Source: Burkholderia cepacia (GTDB lineage: Bacteria; Pseudomonadota; Gammaproteobacteria; Burkholderiales; Burkholderiaceae). Taken from it: a stretch of 64,000 nucleotides of DNA. The first letter of the stretch is position 1; each line of letters opens with the position of its first letter. Shown here one piece after another: positions 15,049 to 26,259 of this stretch. Made by a program: the position numbers and the translations under genes. Below the pieces are notes generated by a model. The model saw only the letters and a program-made list of their open reading frames with translations. It had not been told where the DNA came from and did no database searches. The DNA lies in assembly GCF_029962485.1 (NCBI RefSeq), contig NZ_CP073638.1:1736001-1800000 (forward strand), read 5' to 3'.

Positions 15049-15504
15049 ATGCCGGACGAAGCACTGGATCGCCTGGATCTTGCGATCCTGGAAGCCCTGC
15101 AGGAAAACGCGCGGACGCCGCTGTCGGAAGTGGGCCGGCGTATCGGGCTGTCGCAGCCGGCGACCTCGGAACGCGTCAAGCGGCTGGAAGAGCGCGGCAT
15201 CATCGCCGGCTACGGCGCGCGGATCGATCCGGCTGCGTTGGGCCTGGGAATGATGGCCATCATCCGGCTGAAAACGACGCACGAACACATCAAGCCCGCG
15301 CTGCGCGCGTTTGCGGAGATGCCGCATGTCATCGAAGTCCACCGCATGACCGGAGACGATTGTTTTCTGCTGAAGGTGCTGGTGCCGACACCGGGCCAGC
15401 TGGAGACCCTCGTCGACGCGATTGCCCGTTTCGGGGCGGTCACGACTTCACTGGTGTTGCGATCCGAACCGGCCAAGACGATCGGAAAGGCGCTGCTCGG
15501 ATGA
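15049..15504 (+). CDS. Lrp/AsnC-family transcriptional regulator
   Basis: This is a 151-residue Lrp/AsnC regulator. The N-terminal winged helix (ILEALQENARTPLSEVGRRI, then LSQPATSERVKRLEERGII) is followed by a RAM effector domain with RMTGDDCFLLKV and a C-terminal SLVLRSEP. The ATG at 15049 follows GGAGG by 7 bases; ATGs at 15016 and 15022 lack such a site. It is divergent from the hydrolase gene and lies just before the AT-richer region that precedes the peptide/M29 unit, so either neighbour could be its target. Confidence 0.9.
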   Translation: MPDEALDRLDLAILEALQENARTPLSEVGRRIGLSQPATSERVKRLEERGIIAGYGARIDPAALGLGMMAIIRLKTTHEHIKPALRAFAEMPHVIEVHRMTGDDCFLLKVLVPTPGQLETLVDAIARFGAVTTSLVLRSEPAKTIGKALLG

Positions 15505-15865
15505 CGTACGCATGCGGACCGGCCGCGTGGCGCCAATCCGGGTATTGCATCGATCACAATAATCCGGGCAATTGAATTGGCGATTAAAAATTGCTGAATG
15601 CATTGCATCGATACAGATTCAATCCGTCGGAAATGGCGTCGAATCCGTGATGTGTTTTATTCGTTCTTTTTCGACGCAAGAATCACAAACGTCCGGTGTT
15701 TAGCACGCCCTGGCTAAAATCCTTGCAACGCATTGCATTCATAAAATCGTCAGACTAATATCGACGCCACTTGTCCGGCATTCACAAAATACCGAACGAG
15801 GAGCGGGAATATTTTTTACCGCGCTTTCATGTTGAATCACTCATGTTCACCACAGGAGAATTGAC
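15505..15865. promoter_or_regulatory. AT-rich upstream region of the peptide operon with repeated ATTGCATCGAT
   Basis: This 361-bp stretch is clearly AT-richer than the surroundings and has no long reading frame. ATTGCATCGAT occurs exactly at 15544-15554 and 15602-15612, and a near copy ATTGCATTCAT at 15732-15742. These could be operator half-sites, for example for the adjacent Lrp-type protein. A Shine-Dalgarno (AGGAG) is at its right edge. I see no confident sigma-70 promoter pair. Confidence 0.5.
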
Positions 15866-15988
15866 ATGCAGGACACCCAGCAGATCGAATTGCTTGACTG
15901 GATGCAGGAAGACACGCACCCCGAGGCCGTCGACATGATGGTCGAGGACGCCGTAGTGCCGTTCGGCACCGCGCTCTGGCCAGTCTGA
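15866..15988 (+). CDS. 40-residue peptide, candidate precursor or leader peptide
   Basis: This short gene encodes 40 residues with a strong AGGAG eight bases before the ATG. The first 29 residues are acidic and leader-like (MQDTQQIELLDWMQEDTHPE, then AVDMMVEDA), and the last eleven are neutral and hydrophobic (VVPFGTALWPV). There are no Cys or Lys residues. The 123 bases use GC-rich third positions as real genes here do. It is followed by a perfect hairpin and then by an M29-like aminopeptidase gene 58 bp downstream in the same direction. The layout of a small precursor, a hairpin and a processing enzyme is what is seen in many ribosomal peptide pathways. That is inference; a regulatory leader peptide is the main alternative. 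Confidence 0.6.
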   Translation: MQDTQQIELLDWMQEDTHPEAVDMMVEDAVVPFGTALWPV

Positions 15989-16005
15989 GCGGGCCACCCG
16001 TTCTC

Positions 16006-16029
16006 GCGGAAGGGCCGAGGCCCTTCCGC
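16006..16029 (+). terminator. Perfect hairpin between the peptide gene and the M29-like gene
   Basis: GCGGAAGGGCC at 16006-16016 is the exact reverse complement of GGCCCTTCCGC at 16019-16029, giving about 10 pairs around a tetraloop. No T-tract follows. It sits 17 bases after the peptide stop and 17 bases before the next ATG. It could be a partial terminator or RNA-stabilising element that makes the peptide message more abundant than the enzyme message. Confidence 0.6.
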
Positions 16030-16046
16030 CGCTTCCGGAGATACGC

Positions 16047-17000
16047 ATGCTGAACCTGCACCGCGCGCTCGGGTTTCACCCCGCGCTACGCGACAAGCTG
16101 GCGCGCGGCGAGTCGGGAAAACTGCTGGTCGGCCATGACACCCGCAACCGCGACATCGCGTTGCGCGCGTTTTCCGCCCTGCCCGCATCGCTCGACGCCA
16201 CGACCCTCTGCCTCGAAAGCACCGCCCCCGCCGACATCGCCGCCGCGCTCCACGAAGCCGACCTGTTCGTGCTGCTGTACGACTCGTCGTGCCTGCCGAC
16301 ACCGTCGCCGAGCGGTCCGCCGTTCCTCGCCGCGATCCGCCCGGCGATCGTCGCGCACTGGAGCAAGTCGGTTTTGTTCAAGGATTACGGCCCGCACCTC
16401 GACGAGGCGTTCGCCGAATCGCTCGACGACATCGCCGCGCGCAACGGCCGGCTGATCGACGCGGCCGCACACGCATCTCAGATCCGCTTCATCGATGAAG
16501 CCGGCAACACGCTGACGGGCTCGCTCGCGCCGGACCAGAAATGGACGAGAGTGGACGGCATGGGCAATCTCGACGTCGTGCCGGGCGAGATCGCGACGCA
16601 CGTGACCGACCTGAACGGCTCGGTCGTGTTCAGCGGCACGTTTCTCGGCACCGTGCCGTTCGCGATCAAATACAAGGTGGCCGAGCGACTCGCGACGCTG
16701 CAGGTCGAGAACAGCACGATCGTCGATTTCGATACCGACGATGCGGGCTTCCGGCGCGATTTCTCGACCTATCTCGACCGCCACGCGAATCACCGGCGCA
16801 TCGAGGAATTCGGCATCGGCACGAACCTCGGCATACGCGGGCTCTACGGCCGCAACGCGGGGTTCGAGGAACGCCATCCGGGCCTGCATCTCGGGCTCGG
16901 CGGCGGCGAAAACGGCAGCCACCATCTCGACCTGATCTTCGCGCGCGGCACGCTCGCGCTCGACGAGCGGATCGTGTTCGACGGCGCGTTCGCCGTCTGA
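16047..17000 (+). CDS. Compact M29 (aminopeptidase T)-like metalloprotein
   Basis: This 317-residue protein resembles family M29 aminopeptidases but lacks about 90 residues, mostly N-terminal. The metal ligands seem intact: Glu181 in VVPGEIATHV, Glu254 in EEFGIGTN, His281 in HLGLGGG, and His293 and Asp295 in SHHLDLIF. The GSVVFSGTF segment matches the strand that follows the first ligand in the family. M29 enzymes remove N-terminal residues using two metal ions. The gene has its own CGGAGA ribosome site and follows the 40-residue peptide gene and hairpin, so the peptide is a natural candidate substrate or partner. No other modifying enzyme follows; the next gene is on the other strand. Confidence 0.75.
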   Translation: MLNLHRALGFHPALRDKLARGESGKLLVGHDTRNRDIALRAFSALPASLDATTLCLESTAPADIAAALHEADLFVLLYDSSCLPTPSPSGPPFLAAIRPAIVAHWSKSVLFKDYGPHLDEAFAESLDDIAARNGRLIDAAAHASQIRFIDEAGNTLTGSLAPDQKWTRVDGMGNLDVVPGEIATHVTDLNGSVVFSGTFLGTVPFAIKYKVAERLATLQVENSTIVDFDTDDAGFRRDFSTYLDRHANHRRIEEFGIGTNLGIRGLYGRNAGFEERHPGLHLGLGGGENGSHHLDLIFARGTLALDERIVFDGAFAV

Positions 17001-17020
17001 CGAGGCAGGTGCTTGCGTGC

Positions 17021-17530
17021 TCAGGCTTCGGCGGCAGGCGTGTCGCCGAGCCACTTGAACATCACGAGGCAGTCGACGAAGCCGAGCCGCGCATGACGGT
17101 ATGCGCGCGGCAGCCGGCCGACGATCTCGAATCCCAGCTTCTGCCACAGCGCGACCGCGACCTCGTTCGTCGCGACCACCGAGTTGAACTGCATCGCGAG
17201 GAAACCGCGCTCGCGTGCGACCTGCTGCGAGTGCTCGCACATCAGTCGCGCGACGCCGCGACCGCGCGCGGCCTCGCTCACCATGTAGCCGCAATTGCTC
17301 ACGTGCTTGCCGGGCCCCGCCGCGTTCGCCTTCAGGTAGTACGAGCCGAGCACCACGCCGTCCTCTTCGGCGATCCACGTGCAGAGCGGTGCGGTGAGCC
17401 ACAGTGCGCGCGCCGCTTCCGGTGTCGGCGCCGGATCGAAAGCGTAGGTTTCCTGAGCAGCGACGATGGCGCGATAGGTCGGCCAGAAGCGCGGGAAATC
17501 GTCCTCGGTCATCGGGCGAATCGTGATCAT
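17021..17530 (-). CDS. GNAT-family N-acetyltransferase
   Basis: This is a 169-residue GCN5-related acetyltransferase. It begins ITIRPMTEDDFPRFW, has the acetyl-CoA loop EAARGRGVARLM, and ends with the WQKLGFEIVGRLPRA element common to the phosphinothricin-acetyltransferase-like subgroup. The acceptor is unknown. It converges on the M29-like gene (20 bp apart) and lies upstream-to-downstream after the AraC gene on the same strand, with a 55-bp gap, so it may be cotranscribed with that regulator. Confidence 0.88.
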   Translation of the reverse strand: MITIRPMTEDDFPRFWPTYRAIVAAQETYAFDPAPTPEAARALWLTAPLCTWIAEEDGVVLGSYYLKANAAGPGKHVSNCGYMVSEAARGRGVARLMCEHSQQVARERGFLAMQFNSVVATNEVAVALWQKLGFEIVGRLPRAYRHARLGFVDCLVMFKWLGDTPAAEA

Positions 17531-18856: not shown

Positions 18857-20572
18857 ATGAGCAAGACTTTCGACTACATCGTCGTCGGCGGCGGGTCGGG
18901 CGGCTGCGTCGTCGCGGGGCGCCTGACCGAGGACCCGGCCGTGACCGTCTGCGTGCTCGAGGCCGGCGGCCGCGGCGACAGCGCGGTCGTCAACGTGCCG
19001 ACCGGCGCGGTCGCGATGATGCCCACGCGCCTGAACAACTGGGCGTTCGACACGGTGCCGCAGCCGGGGCTCGGCGGGCGCATCGGCTACCAGCCGCGCG
19101 GCAAGGCGCTCGGTGGATCGTCGGCGATCAACGCGATGGTCTATATCCGCGGCCATCGCGTCGACTACGACGGCTGGGCCGCGCTCGGCAACGAAGGCTG
19201 GGCGTACGACGACGTGCTGCCGTACTTCCGCCTGAGCGAGCACAACGAGCGCTTCGACGATGCATGGCACGGCCGCGACGGCCCACTGTGGGTCAGCGAC
19301 CTGCGCACCGGCAACCCGTTCCATGCGCGTTACCTGGAAGCCGCGCAACAGGCCGGCCTGCCGCTCACCGACGATTTCAACGGTGCGCGACAGGAAGGTA
19401 TCGGGATCTACCAGGTCACGCAGAAGCACGGCGAACGCTGGAGCGCGGCGCGCGCGTACCTGCTGCCGCATCTCGGCCGCCGCGACAACCTGACGGTCGA
19501 GACGCACGCGCAGGTACTGCGCATCCTGTTCGACGGCACGCGCGCGATCGGTGTCGAGGTGCGGCAGCACGGCGAAGTCCGCACGCTGCGCGCGCGGCGC
19601 GAAGTCGTGCTCGCGGCCGGCGCGCTGCAGACGCCGCAGTTGCTGATGCTGTCGGGCGTCGGCCCGGGCCGCGAACTCCAGCAGCTCGGCATCGCGGTGC
19701 AGGCCGACCTGCCCGGCGTCGGCCGCAACCTGCAGGATCATCCGGATTTCATCTTCGGCTATCGCACACGCAGCGTCGACACGATGGGCGTGTCCGCGCG
19801 CGGCGGCCTGCGGATGCTGCGCGAGTTCGCGCGCTTTCGCCGCGAACGGCGCGGGATGCTGACGTCGAATTTCGCGGAAGGCGGCGGCTTCCTGAAAACG
19901 CGTGCCGATCTCGCCGCGCCGGACATCCAGCTGCATTTCGTCGTCGCGCTCGTCGACGATCATGCGCGCAAGCTGCACGCCGGCCACGGGCTGTCGTGCC
20001 ACGTGTGCCTGCTGCGGCCGCGCAGCCGCGGCTCGGTCACGCTGAACAGCGCCGATCTGCTCGCGGCGCCGCGCATCGATCCCGCGTTCTTCGACGATCC
20101 GCGCGATGTCGACGACATGGTCGCCGGCTTCCGGATCACGCGCCGGCTGATGGAAGCACCGGCGCTCGCGAGCTGGATCACGCGCGACCTGTTCACCGCG
20201 AACGTGACGACCGACGACGAGATCCGCGACGTGCTGCGGCGACGCACCGACACCGTTTATCACCCGGTCGGCACCTGCCGGATGGGTCACGATGAAATGG
20301 CCGTCGTCGATCCGCAACTGCGCGTGCGCGGCGTGCAGGGGCTGCGCATCGTCGATGCGTCGGTGATGCCGACGCTGATCGGCGGCAACACCAACGCGCC
20401 GACGATCATGATCGCCGAGAAGGCCGTCGACCTGATGCGCGGCGTGCGCCGCGTGCCCGCGCGGCCGCATGCCGAAACCGACGATCCGTCGACGGCGCGC
20501 GACGCCGTTCTTGCCCCCTGCGCCACGCACGATGTCGTCCAGCCCGAGGAAACCCGCCATGCTGTCGCCTGA
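18857..20572 (+). CDS. GMC-family FAD-dependent alcohol dehydrogenase/choline dehydrogenase-like
   Basis: This 571-residue glucose-methanol-choline oxidoreductase has the FAD fingerprint VVGGGSGG (9-16), the GMC signature region GKALGGSSAINAMVYIRG, and the C-terminal catalytic HPVGTCRMG with His469 and GNTNAPTIMIAE with Asn511. The closest general type is AlkJ-like alcohol dehydrogenase, which feeds electrons to the respiratory chain rather than to oxygen. The C-terminal 40 residues are an extra Arg/Pro/Asp-rich tail. AAAGGAGA precedes the ATG. The next gene begins inside this gene, so the two proteins are coupled: this enzyme could supply the ketone or aldehyde used by the Baeyer-Villiger domain downstream. 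Confidence 0.9.
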   Translation: MSKTFDYIVVGGGSGGCVVAGRLTEDPAVTVCVLEAGGRGDSAVVNVPTGAVAMMPTRLNNWAFDTVPQPGLGGRIGYQPRGKALGGSSAINAMVYIRGHRVDYDGWAALGNEGWAYDDVLPYFRLSEHNERFDDAWHGRDGPLWVSDLRTGNPFHARYLEAAQQAGLPLTDDFNGARQEGIGIYQVTQKHGERWSAARAYLLPHLGRRDNLTVETHAQVLRILFDGTRAIGVEVRQHGEVRTLRARREVVLAAGALQTPQLLMLSGVGPGRELQQLGIAVQADLPGVGRNLQDHPDFIFGYRTRSVDTMGVSARGGLRMLREFARFRRERRGMLTSNFAEGGGFLKTRADLAAPDIQLHFVVALVDDHARKLHAGHGLSCHVCLLRPRSRGSVTLNSADLLAAPRIDPAFFDDPRDVDDMVAGFRITRRLMEAPALASWITRDLFTANVTTDDEIRDVLRRRTDTVYHPVGTCRMGHDEMAVVDPQLRVRGVQGLRIVDASVMPTLIGGNTNAPTIMIAEKAVDLMRGVRRVPARPHAETDDPSTARDAVLAPCATHDVVQPEETRHAVA

Positions 20573-23009
20573 TCCCTCCCGTTCCGCCGGCTCCGCCGCG
20601 CCGCTTGCCGCGATCATCATCGGCGCCGGCTTCGCCGGCATCGGCATGGCCGTCGCGCTGCAACGCGCCGGCATCCACGATTTCGTGATCGTCGAACGCT
20701 CGCACGACGTCGGCGGCGTATGGCGCGACAACAGCTACCCGGGCGCCGCGTGCGACGTGCCTTCGCACCTGTACTCGTTCTCGTTCGAACCGAATCCGGC
20801 CTGGTCGCGCGTGTTCGCACCGCAACCGGAAATCCATGCGTACCTGCAGCATTGCGCGCGCAAGTACGGCCTCGCGCGCCACCTGCGCTTCGGCGCCGAA
20901 GTCGAGCACGCGCGCTACGACGAAGCCCACGCGCTGTGGCACGTCACGCTCGCCGACGGCACGACGCTCGGCGCCGCCGTGCTCGTCAGCGGCACCGGCC
21001 AGTTGAGCCGTCCGGCGATGCCCGACCTGCCCGGCATCGACACCTTCCGCGGCCGGGCATTCCACTCCGCGCACTGGGATCACGACTATTCGCTCGCCGG
21101 CAAGCGCGTGGCCGTGGTCGGCACCGGCGCGTCGGCGATCCAGTTCGTGCCTGCGATCGCCGGCAGCGTTCGGCACCTGGCCGTGTTCCAGCGTTCGCCG
21201 GCCTACGTGATACCGCGCCCCGACCGCGCGTATCGCCCATGGGAGCAGGCGCTGTTTCGCCGGATGCCGTGGGCGATGAAACTGCATCGCGCATCGATCT
21301 ACCTGCGCTACGAATCGCGTGCGATCGCGTTCACGCGCCTGCACGGGCTGATGAAAGTCGCGGTCGGCCGGCCGTTCCGCAAGCTGCTTGCGCGCGACGT
21401 GCCGGACCCGGCGCTGCGCGCACGGCTCACGCCCGACTACCCGATCGGCTGCAAGCGGCTCCTGCTGTCGAGCGACTACCTCGCGACGATGAGCCGCGAG
21501 CACGTCGAACTCGTCACGCAACGGATCCGGCGCGTGACCGAGGACGGGATCGAAACCGCCGACGGCGTCCATCATCCGGTCGATGCGATCGTCTACGGCA
21601 CGGGGTTCGCGGCGACCGAGTTCCTGTCGCCGATGCGCATCACGGGCCGCGACGGGCTCGACCTGAACGACGCGTGGCGACGCGGTGCGCAGGCCTATCT
21701 CGGGCTCACCGTGCCCGGCTTCCCGAATTTCTTCATGCTGTACGGCCCGAACACCAACCTCGGTCACAACTCGATCGTCTACATGCTCGAAAGCCAGATC
21801 GCGCACGTGATGCGCTGCGTGCGGGCGATGCGGCGCGACGGCGCGCGCGAGATCGACGTCGACGCGCGCCGCTACCGGCGCTTCAACGCGCACGTGCAGC
21901 AGCGGCTCGCCGGTTCGGTGTGGAGCGGCTGCAAGAGCTGGTACGTCGATGCATCGGGGCACAACAGCACGAACTGGCCGGGCTTCACGCTGACCTACCG
22001 GTGGATCACGCGGTTCACCGGCATGGCTGCGTACCGCTTCACGCGTCCGTTGCCCGAGCCGGCCGCGCCGACGCGCGGCGCGGTGGTCGCACCACCTGCC
22101 GGCGGGCTGGAGGCGCTCGCCGCCGCGTCGCTGCGCGGCTTCCTGCGCGTCGCGTTCCGGCCGCTGATCGGGCCGCCGTTCGGGGCGCGCATGCAGCGCC
22201 GTGTCGTCGCGCTGCTGTCGCCGCTGATGCCCGGCGTGGGCGGCACGCTGCGCTACCGCCTGTCCGCGCACGGCGTGCCGGTCGAAGTCGTCGCGCCGAA
22301 GCGCGGCGATACGGGTGGTGCGATCCTGTATCTGCACGGCGGTGCGTTCTGCCTTGGCGGGCCGCATACGCATCGCGGCGTGACGACGCGGCTCGCGAAC
22401 GATGCGGGCCTGCCGGTGTGGGTGCCCGATTACCGGCTCGCGCCCGAACACCCTAGCCCGGCCGCGCTCGACGATGCGCTGGCCGTGTACGACGCGATGC
22501 GCGCGCAGGGTCATGCGCCGCACCGGATCGTGATCGCCGGCGACTCGGCCGGCGGTGCGCTGGCACTCGCGCTCGCGATCGCGCTACGCGAGCGCGGCGA
22601 CCCGGCCGCCGCCGCGCTGCTGCTGATCTCGCCCGTGACCGACCCCGCGCTCGGCGGTGCGACACTCGCCTCGCGCCGCCACGACGATCCGATGATCCGG
22701 CGCGGCTGGCTCGAACAGGGGCTGCGCTGGTACCACGGCGCCGGCTCGGCCGTCGCGCGCGGCCCGCTCGACACCGACCTGCGCGGCCTGCCCCCGATGC
22801 TGGTCCAGGCCGGCGACCAGGAGGTGCTGCTGTCGGACGCACAGCGGCTGGCCGATCACGCGAGCGCGTGCGGCGTGCCATGCCGGCTGGAGATTCATGC
22901 GGCGCGCTGGCACGTGTTTCATCTGCAGGCGTTTTACTTGCGCTCGGCGCGCGATGCGTTGCGGACGCTGGCGGCGTTTGCGTCGGCACGGGTGGCTGCA
23001 ACGGCATGA
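20559..23009 (+). CDS. Baeyer-Villiger monooxygenase fused to an alpha/beta-hydrolase (esterase)
   Basis: This 816-residue protein joins two enzymes. Residues 15-500 form a class B flavin monooxygenase: FAD motif GAGFAG (22-27), the BVMO fingerprint FRGRAFHSAHW (163-173), and NADPH motif GTGASA (188-193). Residues 560-810 form a hormone-sensitive-lipase-type hydrolase: oxyanion HGGAF (593-597), nucleophile Ser663 in GDSAGG, Asp753 and His785 in WHVFH. A BVMO turns a ketone into an ester and the hydrolase would cleave it at once. GAGGAAA precedes the ATG at 20559, which lies 14 bases inside the GMC gene; earlier in-frame ATGs at 20469 and 20532 are possible. Alternative: the hydrolase half may act on a separate substrate. 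Confidence 0.87.
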   Translation: MLSPDPSRSAGSAAPLAAIIIGAGFAGIGMAVALQRAGIHDFVIVERSHDVGGVWRDNSYPGAACDVPSHLYSFSFEPNPAWSRVFAPQPEIHAYLQHCARKYGLARHLRFGAEVEHARYDEAHALWHVTLADGTTLGAAVLVSGTGQLSRPAMPDLPGIDTFRGRAFHSAHWDHDYSLAGKRVAVVGTGASAIQFVPAIAGSVRHLAVFQRSPAYVIPRPDRAYRPWEQALFRRMPWAMKLHRASIYLRYESRAIAFTRLHGLMKVAVGRPFRKLLARDVPDPALRARLTPDYPIGCKRLLLSSDYLATMSREHVELVTQRIRRVTEDGIETADGVHHPVDAIVYGTGFAATEFLSPMRITGRDGLDLNDAWRRGAQAYLGLTVPGFPNFFMLYGPNTNLGHNSIVYMLESQIAHVMRCVRAMRRDGAREIDVDARRYRRFNAHVQQRLAGSVWSGCKSWYVDASGHNSTNWPGFTLTYRWITRFTGMAAYRFTRPLPEPAAPTRGAVVAPPAGGLEALAAASLRGFLRVAFRPLIGPPFGARMQRRVVALLSPLMPGVGGTLRYRLSAHGVPVEVVAPKRGDTGGAILYLHGGAFCLGGPHTHRGVTTRLANDAGLPVWVPDYRLAPEHPSPAALDDALAVYDAMRAQGHAPHRIVIAGDSAGGALALALAIALRERGDPAAAALLLISPVTDPALGGATLASRRHDDPMIRRGWLEQGLRWYHGAGSAVARGPLDTDLRGLPPMLVQAGDQEVLLSDAQRLADHASACGVPCRLEIHAARWHVFHLQAFYLRSARDALRTLAAFASARVAATA

Positions 23010-24240: not shown

Positions 24241-26259
24241 TCACGGCCTGACCATCCACACGAGCAGCATCTCGGCCGGCGCGGCCGTCATCCCCGCCGG
24301 CGGACGCTCGATCGTCGGCTCGACCGCCAGCGCCTGCGCGATCGCTGCCGCGTCGTCGATCGTCGTCGTGCGCACGATCGTCATCAGGCGCGCCGGCCGG
24401 TGCAGCGCCTCGCGATACAGCGCGCCGTACCACAGCGGCCGCATGCCGAGCGCGTCCTGCAGCACGTACGGATAGCGCCACAGCCGCAGTACGAGGCGAC
24501 TGTCCGGGTGGGCCGGATCGACGCGCACGAACACCCGGCGGGTGCTTTCGCCGTGCGTGTAGCGCGGCAGCACGGGCAGCGTATCGGCCGGCGCCTGCGG
24601 CAACAGCCAGCGCAGCGCGGTGGCCGGCGACCACGGCGTCGCGCGCTGCCAGCCGGCCTGCGCGAGATGCCGGTCGAGCGTGTCCGATGTCGCACTCCAT
24701 TGCAGCGGCAGATATTCCTCGCGGTCGCCGCCGATCTCGGTGCGCCGCGTCGGCACGCGCTGCCACCCGCCGCGCAACCACTGGTCGACGGTCATCGCGA
24801 CCACGTCGCCGACATGCGGGCGCGCCGCGCGATCGAGCTGCCATTGCGCAGGGATCGTCCATACGCCGGCCGTCGCGAGCACCACGAGCACCGCGACGAG
24901 CGCACCCCGCGGCTGCACATGCTCGCGCACGCGCCAGTACGCATACGCGCCGGCGAGCAGCGCGAACCAGGCCAGCCCGAGGCTCCATCCGCCGAGCAGC
25001 CCCGACAGCCAGGTATCGCCGACGTACAGCCGCGCGAAACCGCCGAGCACGATCCACAACACGACCGCCGTCACGACCGGAATGCGCCACAGCGCGGGCC
25101 GGTCGCGCGTGATCACCCAGCCGAGGCCGCTGCTCGCGAGGATCGCAAACGCGGCATCCGCATCGGGCAGCGGTACGTGCGGCGCGCCGGGCGGCAGGCT
25201 CGCGGGTGTCGCGCCCGGCACGAGCGCGCCGAACGCCGGTACGAGCACGACGGCGACACCGACCGTCGCGAGCCACCACGCGGCAGTCAGCCAGCAGCGA
25301 TGGATCATCAGCCAGACCAGAAACGCGGCCGCGACGATCAGCCCCGTATCGTGCCCGTGCAGCACGGCAAGCGCACTCATCGCGGCGTCGACGGGCGGGG
25401 TGCGCAGGTTCTGCAGGAACGCATACAGCGCGATGTCCGCGTGCATCAGCGGATCGTTCGCGACGACGTCCTGCACGATCCCCGCGAACAGCCACACGCA
25501 GCCGACGAACAGCAGCGCGAGCACGGGCACCGCGCCCGGCAGGCCGCGCACATAAGCGATCGCGTCGTGCAGCCGCGCGCCGAAGCGCGGCCAGCGGCGC
25601 GCGCATGCGTGCACGGCTTCGACGAGCGCGCGGCGCAGCAACGGCCAGCCGCGCCGCAGCGCGACGCGTACGCCGATCCACACGAGCGCGACCAGGGCGG
25701 CCACGACCAGCAGGATCGCGGCAACCCGCACGCTGATCGCCGCGGCCAGCGCGGCCGACGCGCCGAACAGGATGCCCGGCGCGACATGTACGGGCGCCCA
25801 CACGAGCGCCGACACGACGTTGACCGGATAGAACGACCGGCGCGGCAGCGTCGCGCAGCCGACGACGACCGGCACGACCGCACGCACCGGTGCGAGGAAG
25901 CGGGCGAGCACGATGCTCTTCATCCCGTGACGCAGCACGAACTCCTCGCCGCGCGCGTACGCGTTCGCATAGCCAAAGCGCGCCCACACGTTGCGGATCA
26001 TCCCGCGATAGTGCCGCCCGAGCTCGTAGCTGATCCCGTCGCCGACCACCGCGCCGACGGCCGCGACGCCGATCGTCGTCCACCCGTCGAGCGCGCCGGC
26101 GCCGATCAGCGCACCGGCCGCGAACATCACCGCGCCGGCCGGCACCACCGTGCCGATCAGCGCGATCGCCTCGGCGCACGCCGTCACGAACACGATCGCC
26201 AGCACGAGCAGCGGATGCGCGCCGATCGCGCCGATCCACGCGTGGATCGTGTCGCTCAT
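24241..26259 (-). CDS. DedA - PAP2-like - LssY C-terminal fusion membrane protein
   Basis: This 672-residue protein has three parts. Residues 1-200 are a DedA-family membrane domain (YELGRHYRGMIRN, ARFLAPVRAVVPVVVG). Residues 240-450 are a second multi-helix domain resembling PAP2 phosphatases. Residues 480-672 are a soluble LssY-like domain (QWLRGGWQRVPTRR, VFVRVDPAHPDSRLVLRLWR). The PAP2 motifs are degraded: the PSGH position reads PDADAA near 364 and the last motif reads ARLYVGDTWLSGLLGG near 405-420, without the expected His and Asp. It probably does not dephosphorylate lipids, but may bind or move them. It runs alone on the minus strand and converges on the orphan antitoxin gene. Confidence 0.8.
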   Translation of the reverse strand: MSDTIHAWIGAIGAHPLLVLAIVFVTACAEAIALIGTVVPAGAVMFAAGALIGAGALDGWTTIGVAAVGAVVGDGISYELGRHYRGMIRNVWARFGYANAYARGEEFVLRHGMKSIVLARFLAPVRAVVPVVVGCATLPRRSFYPVNVVSALVWAPVHVAPGILFGASAALAAAISVRVAAILLVVAALVALVWIGVRVALRRGWPLLRRALVEAVHACARRWPRFGARLHDAIAYVRGLPGAVPVLALLFVGCVWLFAGIVQDVVANDPLMHADIALYAFLQNLRTPPVDAAMSALAVLHGHDTGLIVAAAFLVWLMIHRCWLTAAWWLATVGVAVVLVPAFGALVPGATPASLPPGAPHVPLPDADAAFAILASSGLGWVITRDRPALWRIPVVTAVVLWIVLGGFARLYVGDTWLSGLLGGWSLGLAWFALLAGAYAYWRVREHVQPRGALVAVLVVLATAGVWTIPAQWQLDRAARPHVGDVVAMTVDQWLRGGWQRVPTRRTEIGGDREEYLPLQWSATSDTLDRHLAQAGWQRATPWSPATALRWLLPQAPADTLPVLPRYTHGESTRRVFVRVDPAHPDSRLVLRLWRYPYVLQDALGMRPLWYGALYREALHRPARLMTIVRTTTIDDAAAIAQALAVEPTIERPPAGMTAAPAEMLLVWMVRP

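Follow-up and report, generated by a model that had tools for sequence, protein, structure and literature searches.

Organization of the Locus

The locus studied here is a pair of adjacent genes in a 64,000-nucleotide stretch of Burkholderia cepacia DNA, which we refer to as the window and which lies on the second contig of a 7.7-Mb genome in three contigs. The first gene (15866-15988, + strand) is an open reading frame (ORF) for a 40-residue peptide, MQDTQQIELLDWMQEDTHPEAVDMMVEDAVVPFGTALWPV, composed of an acidic leader (approximately residues 1-29), a core VVPFGTALW (V30 to W38, codons at 15953..15979, + strand) and the tail PV. Its ATG is preceded, at a distance of 7 nt, by the ribosome-binding site AGGAG (15854-15858, + strand), which is nearly invariant in an alignment of 30 Burkholderia sequences. 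The second gene (16047-17000, + strand) encodes a 317-residue protein with a predicted M29 fold, similar to CgnB of the crocagin pathway. Between the two genes sits a hairpin with perfect 11-bp arms (16006-16029, + strand), formed by GCGGAAGGGCC and GGCCCTTCCGC. An earlier note on this DNA had listed these elements and taken peptide, hairpin and M29-like gene for one unit. All of them are present as described, and the unit is a conserved cassette: across six genera, a relative of the peptide lies beside the M29-like gene in 78 of the 80 loci compared.

The Peptide and the M29-like Protein Form a Conserved Two-Gene Cassette

A contig scan with the 317-residue protein returned 210 relatives, the best 80 of which were used for all locus counts. 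These 80 loci, from Burkholderia, Paraburkholderia, Photorhabdus, Chromobacterium, Xenorhabdus and Pseudomonas, encode proteins of 45-97% identity; the closest matches are Burkholderia species that seem to belong to the cepacia complex. When the peptide was sought with the motif [VIA][VI]x[FVL][GA]T[AS]xW, a matching ORF adjoined the M29-like gene in 78 loci, 77 of which have it directly ahead of the gene in the same orientation and one (L077) downstream. This recurrence of the peptide beside M29-like genes was the check that the earlier note had set for its own proposal, which came through it intact. Both loci without a peptide are contig ends. In L071, only 184 bases precede the gene match and the remainder holds no peptide, while in L081 the contig stops 5 bases past the match and the 5 kb upstream lack the peptide, which might lie downstream, although this is only a guess.

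The two genes also co-occur across whole genomes. Among 61 relatives of the host genome, the protein is found in 33, the peptide in 32, both in 32 and neither in 28, the odd genome being an 82% complete draft in 1100 contigs with a partial gene match. The genus of G189, which we took to be Pseudomonas by inference from its peptide and protein, shows the same pattern over 199 genomes: 73 have the protein, 72 the peptide, 72 both and 126 neither, and the odd genome holds a 28-position gene remnant. In all 72 pairs of this genus, the two genes share a strand and the peptide precedes the gene match by 73-105 bp. Both genes are thus present in 104 of the 260 genomes (host relatives plus one further genus), a count taken over related genomes without correction for kinship. 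Among plasmids, three records were found, all from Burkholderia and 3.2-3.5 Mb in size; these are probably second chromosomes filed as plasmids.

A few loci depart from the common form. Genome G016 holds two pairs, the second of which (L119, 4671-5872) has a protein that is 45% identical and a peptide with the core AVIPFATALWA. In a genome of about 1.7 Mb from the same class, the enzyme gene is decayed by internal stops (L129, 4487-5309), and no peptide motif occurs in 9 kb. Another locus (L120, 4969-6162) encodes a different M29-like protein of 397 residues, which matches PF02073 below the cut-off, beside a 60-residue ORF; distant matches resembling this protein are found in two genomes of the G189 genus.

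The Peptide Has a Near-Invariant Core and Is Very Probably under Selection

In the 30 Burkholderia sequences, the peptide ORF has 7, 6 and 23 variable columns at codon positions 1, 2 and 3, respectively. This pattern makes translation of the ORF, and purifying selection on it, very probable.

With a profile built from 13 peptides, we retrieved 74 relatives, including ones from Vibrio aquimaris and Piscirickettsia litoralis, which together with the six genera represented by the loci makes at least eight genera. These peptides were screened with a conservation motif, which left unmatched P0196, which is truncated, and P0165, in which one core residue differs and the Thr and Trp are kept. V31, G34, T35 and W38 are invariant in the 57 distinct relatives, although the invariance of the Thr is partly built in, since the motif presupposed a Thr and a Trp or Phe; the L119 variant, with I31 and A34, lies outside this set. 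Four further core positions are nearly invariant (V30 and P32 in 56 of 57, F33 in 53 and A36 in 52), while position 37 is Met or Leu. The residues that follow the Trp vary (PL, PV, P, PF, A, AL, AV, S, PI, L, SM, PS, PQ, SV). The earlier note had expected a conserved WPV end and a variable leader, and neither expectation held: the strict part is VVPFGTAxW, and the leader is itself conserved as well as acidic (L9 in 46 of 57, W12 in 50, T17 in 49, A21 in 47 and M25 in 52). Folded alone, the peptide is predicted to form helices at residues 9-14 and 19-28, to which we attach little weight given a mean confidence of 64.

Neither the peptide nor the 317-residue product matched Pfam or NCBIfam at an E-value of 0.01. 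In UniRef, several relatives of about 40-62 residues (P0125, P0130, P0132, P0133, P0156, P0160 and P0173) are named "Mercuric reductase," evidently an automatic misnomer. The strings FGTAMWP, FGTALWP, VVPFGTA and VPFGTAMW do not occur in the literature searched, which excluded the supplements of PMC10070186, where the family may be listed. Searches of the same literature on M29, RiPP (ribosomally synthesized and posttranslationally modified peptide) and aminopeptidase subjects likewise returned nothing.

The M29-like Protein Is Predicted to Keep a Two-Metal Site

As for the 317-residue protein, it is predicted to adopt the M29/NicX/CgnB fold in a compact form of about 300 residues that lacks the long dimer region found at the N-terminus of the aminopeptidases. 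Ligands were assigned by spacing and motif from the CgnB ligand numbers (PMC10070186) and by alignment to a true M29 protein. The six residues so identified (E181, E254, E275, H281, H293 and D295) are invariant across 23 homologues, which bears out the intact metal ligands claimed in the earlier note. The protein therefore appears to keep a CgnB-type two-metal site (E, E, E, H, H, D), which is putative.

Family models recognize the protein poorly. It is unmatched by the Pfam model Peptidase_M29 (PF02073), to which a single one of the 23 homologues aligns, at an E-value of 0.071. Source databases give many homologues a precomputed PF26231 assignment or the name CgnE/B, while PF26231 was returned for none of the 23 in our search, the Pfam copy used seeming to be without that model. 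A single-sequence search of the PDB produced three weak matches to Pal lipoproteins, which we took as chance. The whole host genome contains one significant homologue of the protein.

The Intergenic Hairpin Recurs with Different Sequences

At the equivalent site, hairpins of other sequence are present in Pseudomonas, Paraburkholderia, Photorhabdus, Chromobacterium and Xenorhabdus, some of them followed by runs of T as in a terminator. In a scan that took the best of many windows per locus over 22 hand-chosen loci, an intergenic hairpin of -16 kcal/mol or lower was found in 21, L082 reaching -8.4. The hairpin of the window is mildly stronger than expected from shuffled sequences (z -1.65; 15 of 200 shuffles as stable), and the 12 segments shuffled in this way ranged from z -0.52 to -4.46, with 4 of the 12 having no shuffle out of 200 as stable. 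We consider it likely that the hairpin is a partial terminator or a processing element.

Upstream Region and Neighboring Genes

Upstream of the peptide gene, conservation among the 30 Burkholderia sequences is concentrated in a block at about 15697-15790. This block contains a palindrome, TTTAGC-N8-GCTAAA (15699..15718, no strand assigned), which is a candidate operator; the related pattern TTAGC-N4-12-GCTAA precedes the peptide in 21 of the 29 Burkholderia loci (L031-L059). It also contains a weak possible promoter, TTGCAT, 17 nt and TAATAT (15733..15761, + strand), identified by eye only and mostly kept in sequence across the alignment. A consensus scan of 15400-17100 found neither a sigma-70 promoter nor an intrinsic terminator, and Rfam and tRNA scans across the window gave no matches. 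The AT-rich upstream region had been singled out in the earlier note for its repeats of ATTGCATCGAT. Two exact copies are indeed present, at 15544 and 15602, and the window holds 4 matches with at most one mismatch versus 1.45 expected, which is little above chance; the repeats sit in poorly conserved sequence and are not themselves conserved.

When 24 of the 80 loci were compared by ORF content, the M29-like gene was the only one besides the peptide to be common throughout. This agrees with the earlier note, which had seen no known modifying enzyme. In the window, the flanks carry hydrolase, AsnC, GNAT and AraC genes. Two of these were considered as partners and rejected: of the 29 Burkholderia loci, 15 have the upstream Lrp/AsnC gene near the cassette and 26 have the downstream GNAT gene, and the 51 loci of other genera have neither. 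A handful of neighbors match across genera within the 24 loci: an amino-acid permease shared by Pseudomonas and two Xenorhabdus loci; a response regulator of L059 and two Xenorhabdus loci; a 219-residue Xenorhabdus ORF and one Burkholderia locus, probably the same pair as the response regulator; a 169-residue ORF of L077, one Burkholderia locus and one Xenorhabdus locus; and a short ORF of L102 and one Burkholderia locus. These matches are taken as common families or chance. Since no partner gene is kept across genera, the cassette looks autonomous.

Two composite ORFs occur further along the window. In an 846-residue ORF (20469-23009, + strand), the first third resembles a flavin monooxygenase (FMO/Baeyer-Villiger type) and the end resembles an alpha/beta hydrolase, a GESAG-type lipase. 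The two seem to be naturally fused, and the product could couple ketone oxidation with ester hydrolysis. A 672-residue ORF (24241-26259, - strand) combines a DedA-like part, a weak PAP2 phosphatase-like part and an LssY C-terminus.

A Probable Precursor and Its Dedicated Maturase

We consider it probable that the two genes make up a minimal RiPP-type cassette consisting of a precursor and a dedicated maturase. One criterion for RiPPs is a conserved short precursor ORF linked to a dedicated protein, and this linkage is found here. The pairing, the co-occurrence, the purifying selection, the predicted fold and the ligands are what the sequences show; from the pairing, the co-occurrence and the fold, we infer that the protein acts on the peptide and processes it. 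The 40-residue ORF would be the precursor, with its acidic leader, its near-invariant core VVPFGTA(L/M)W and a tail of one or two residues, and the 317-residue protein, a short member of the M29 fold that putatively keeps the two-metal site of CgnB, would be the maturase. The hairpin would keep precursor mRNA in excess, and the maturase would bind the precursor core and alter it covalently at the metal site. How it might do so is a more tentative matter. The metal pair could dehydrate the invariant Thr of GTAxW, after which the Trp located three positions further on could close a ring, as proposed for CgnB on beta-hydroxy-Tyr. Since Thr already bears the beta-hydroxyl that in crocagin is installed by the oxygenase CgnC, this would explain why no oxygenase is linked to the cassette, and elimination at Thr is slightly favored because a CgnB-type protein could then act without one. 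We nevertheless regard this chemistry as doubtful in itself, cleavage alone being about as likely.

A core this constant suggests that the product performs a single conserved task, as a signal or a cofactor-like molecule would, and is not a diversifying antibiotic, and the occurrence of the core in Pseudomonas, Burkholderia, Photorhabdus, Xenorhabdus and Chromobacterium suggests a shared, unrecognized small molecule. In its fullest form, which we put forward as speculative, the proposal is that of a new, very small RiPP class, spread over several genera of proteobacteria, whose near-invariant core is matured by a single M29-fold two-metal protein, with no other enzyme, into a fixed product with one task. 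Should the pair indeed make a modified peptide, few RiPP pathways would be smaller, and an old peptidase fold would have been turned into a peptide-modifying enzyme.

Several observations weigh against a precursor-maturase pair. The cassette is rare outside some genera, the protein profile matching 8 of 398 genomes of the phylum, including one distant M29-like protein (G449), and 4 of 369 genomes in a sample of the class, where the match in G494 is a true M29 and that in G474 a broken copy. The enzyme has a net charge of -12 and the leader is acidic too (peptide net charge -9), so that, in bulk, the pair lacks the charge complementarity of crocagin. An hmmsearch profile of the 23 homologues found no PDB chain at an E-value of 1 or below, CgnB included. 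The invariance of the Thr and Trp may serve binding, not chemistry. In vitro, CgnB altered its peptide only with CgnC (PMC10070186), and a comparison of the 24 loci revealed no conserved oxygenase next to the cassette.

Other roles for the pair have to be weighed against maturation. The M29-like protein might only trim or release the peptide, leaving the product otherwise unmodified or modified by an unlinked enzyme, as would fit both the retention of all M29 metal-ligand motifs and the lack, in the 24 loci compared, of a second conserved enzyme next to the cassette. However, the protein is short for a peptidase (317 residues versus 363 in the M29 protein compared and 408-418 in solved M29 peptidases), Pfam M29 barely registers its family, as described above, and CgnB and CgnE are without aminopeptidase activity (PMC10070186). 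Trimming alone is therefore possible but, in our estimate, improbable. A lower probability still attaches to the peptide being a small partner (an inhibitor, chaperone or regulatory subunit) of an M29-like enzyme that in reality acts on another substrate. Docking in the active site would be consistent with the strict pairing and the almost constant C-terminus, but the tail after the Trp varies in both length and identity, and the intergenic hairpin may favor an excess of peptide, which is less expected of a 1:1 subunit.

The succession of a short ORF with Trp-Pro-X at its end, a hairpin and an enzyme gene also resembles that of a cis-acting leader peptide controlling the downstream gene via the hairpin, TnaC being a leader peptide of this arrest/attenuation kind. 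The locus of Xenorhabdus kozodoii (L077, 4965-6266) argues otherwise. There, the enzyme gene comes first, the peptide ORF follows it at a distance of about 190 bp with none upstream, and the peptide gene is followed by a hairpin that, by eye, is terminator-like. This reversed order largely refutes a cis-acting leader, against which the variable residue before the stop, the one or two residues after the Trp and the conservation across the whole peptide also speak, and we regard that explanation as very unlikely.

Comparison with Known Systems

The precursors of pyrroloquinoline quinone (PQQ) and mycofactocin are likewise small ribosomal peptides whose C-terminal core hardly varies and whose genes have few partners. 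In contrast to these systems, the 24 loci show no conserved radical SAM or other oxidative enzyme next to the cassette. The M29 aminopeptidases (AmpT, 2AYI; AmpS, 1ZJC; PepS, 4ICR/4ICS) are about 50-100 residues longer than the cassette protein, which also differs from them in going unrecognized by Pfam M29 and in being paired with one peptide family. NicX (2,5-dihydroxypyridine dioxygenase, 7CN3) binds one iron through His265, Ser302, His318 and Asp320 (PMC7910607), whereas the cassette family has a predicted Glu-rich two-metal set. NicX-like chemistry, that is, opening of the Trp ring, may be compatible with the predicted fold.

The nearest relatives are CgnB and CgnE from Chondromyces crocatus (PF26231; PDB 6ZSV, 6ZSU), which together with CgnC build the tetracyclic core of crocagin from CgnA (PMC10070186). 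Like the cassette protein, both have an M29-like fold of about 300 residues, and CgnB has the six-ligand two-metal site; in both systems, the gene adjoins a short precursor in which a Trp is the C-terminal residue or close to it. Both CgnB and CgnE have been shown to bind the crocagin precursor and to lack aminopeptidase activity, and the CgnB metal has been proposed to drive elimination from beta-hydroxy-Tyr (PMC10070186). The two systems differ in gene content and in precursor. The crocagin cluster has a second, metal-less homologue and a CgnC-type dioxygenase, while the cassette is without either, and genes of the CgnC, CgnD or CgnL type are not conserved beside it in the 24 loci. The crocagin precursor has 21 residues, a cationic leader and an Ile-Tyr-Trp core, versus about 34-46 residues (some are annotated longer), an acidic leader and an FGTAxW core in the cassette. 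Crocagin A inhibits CsrA in vitro (PMC10070186). CsrA was rejected as an internal target here, since it was detected in 0 of 41 same-order genomes, host included (3 of 14 control genomes were positive), which makes an internal role unlikely; CsrA of other bacteria may be the target.

The claim of the earlier note that no named system has such a pair was consequently too strong, because the predicted fold is shared with CgnB and CgnE, the putative two-metal site with CgnB, and single-copy homologues and their putative precursors had already been mined. About 100 genomes have CgnB/CgnE homologues, of which the single-copy ones keep an intact metal site, and RiPPER found putative precursors beside them (PMC10070186, 2023); Burkholderia, Pseudomonas and Photorhabdus are not named in the main text of that paper. 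The general idea of a single-copy homologue with a putative precursor is thus already published, and the cassette itself is only loosely anticipated by the published work consulted. Since the crocagin work left unanswered what single-copy, metal-containing CgnB-like proteins do without CgnC, the cassette offers a clean case of this question.
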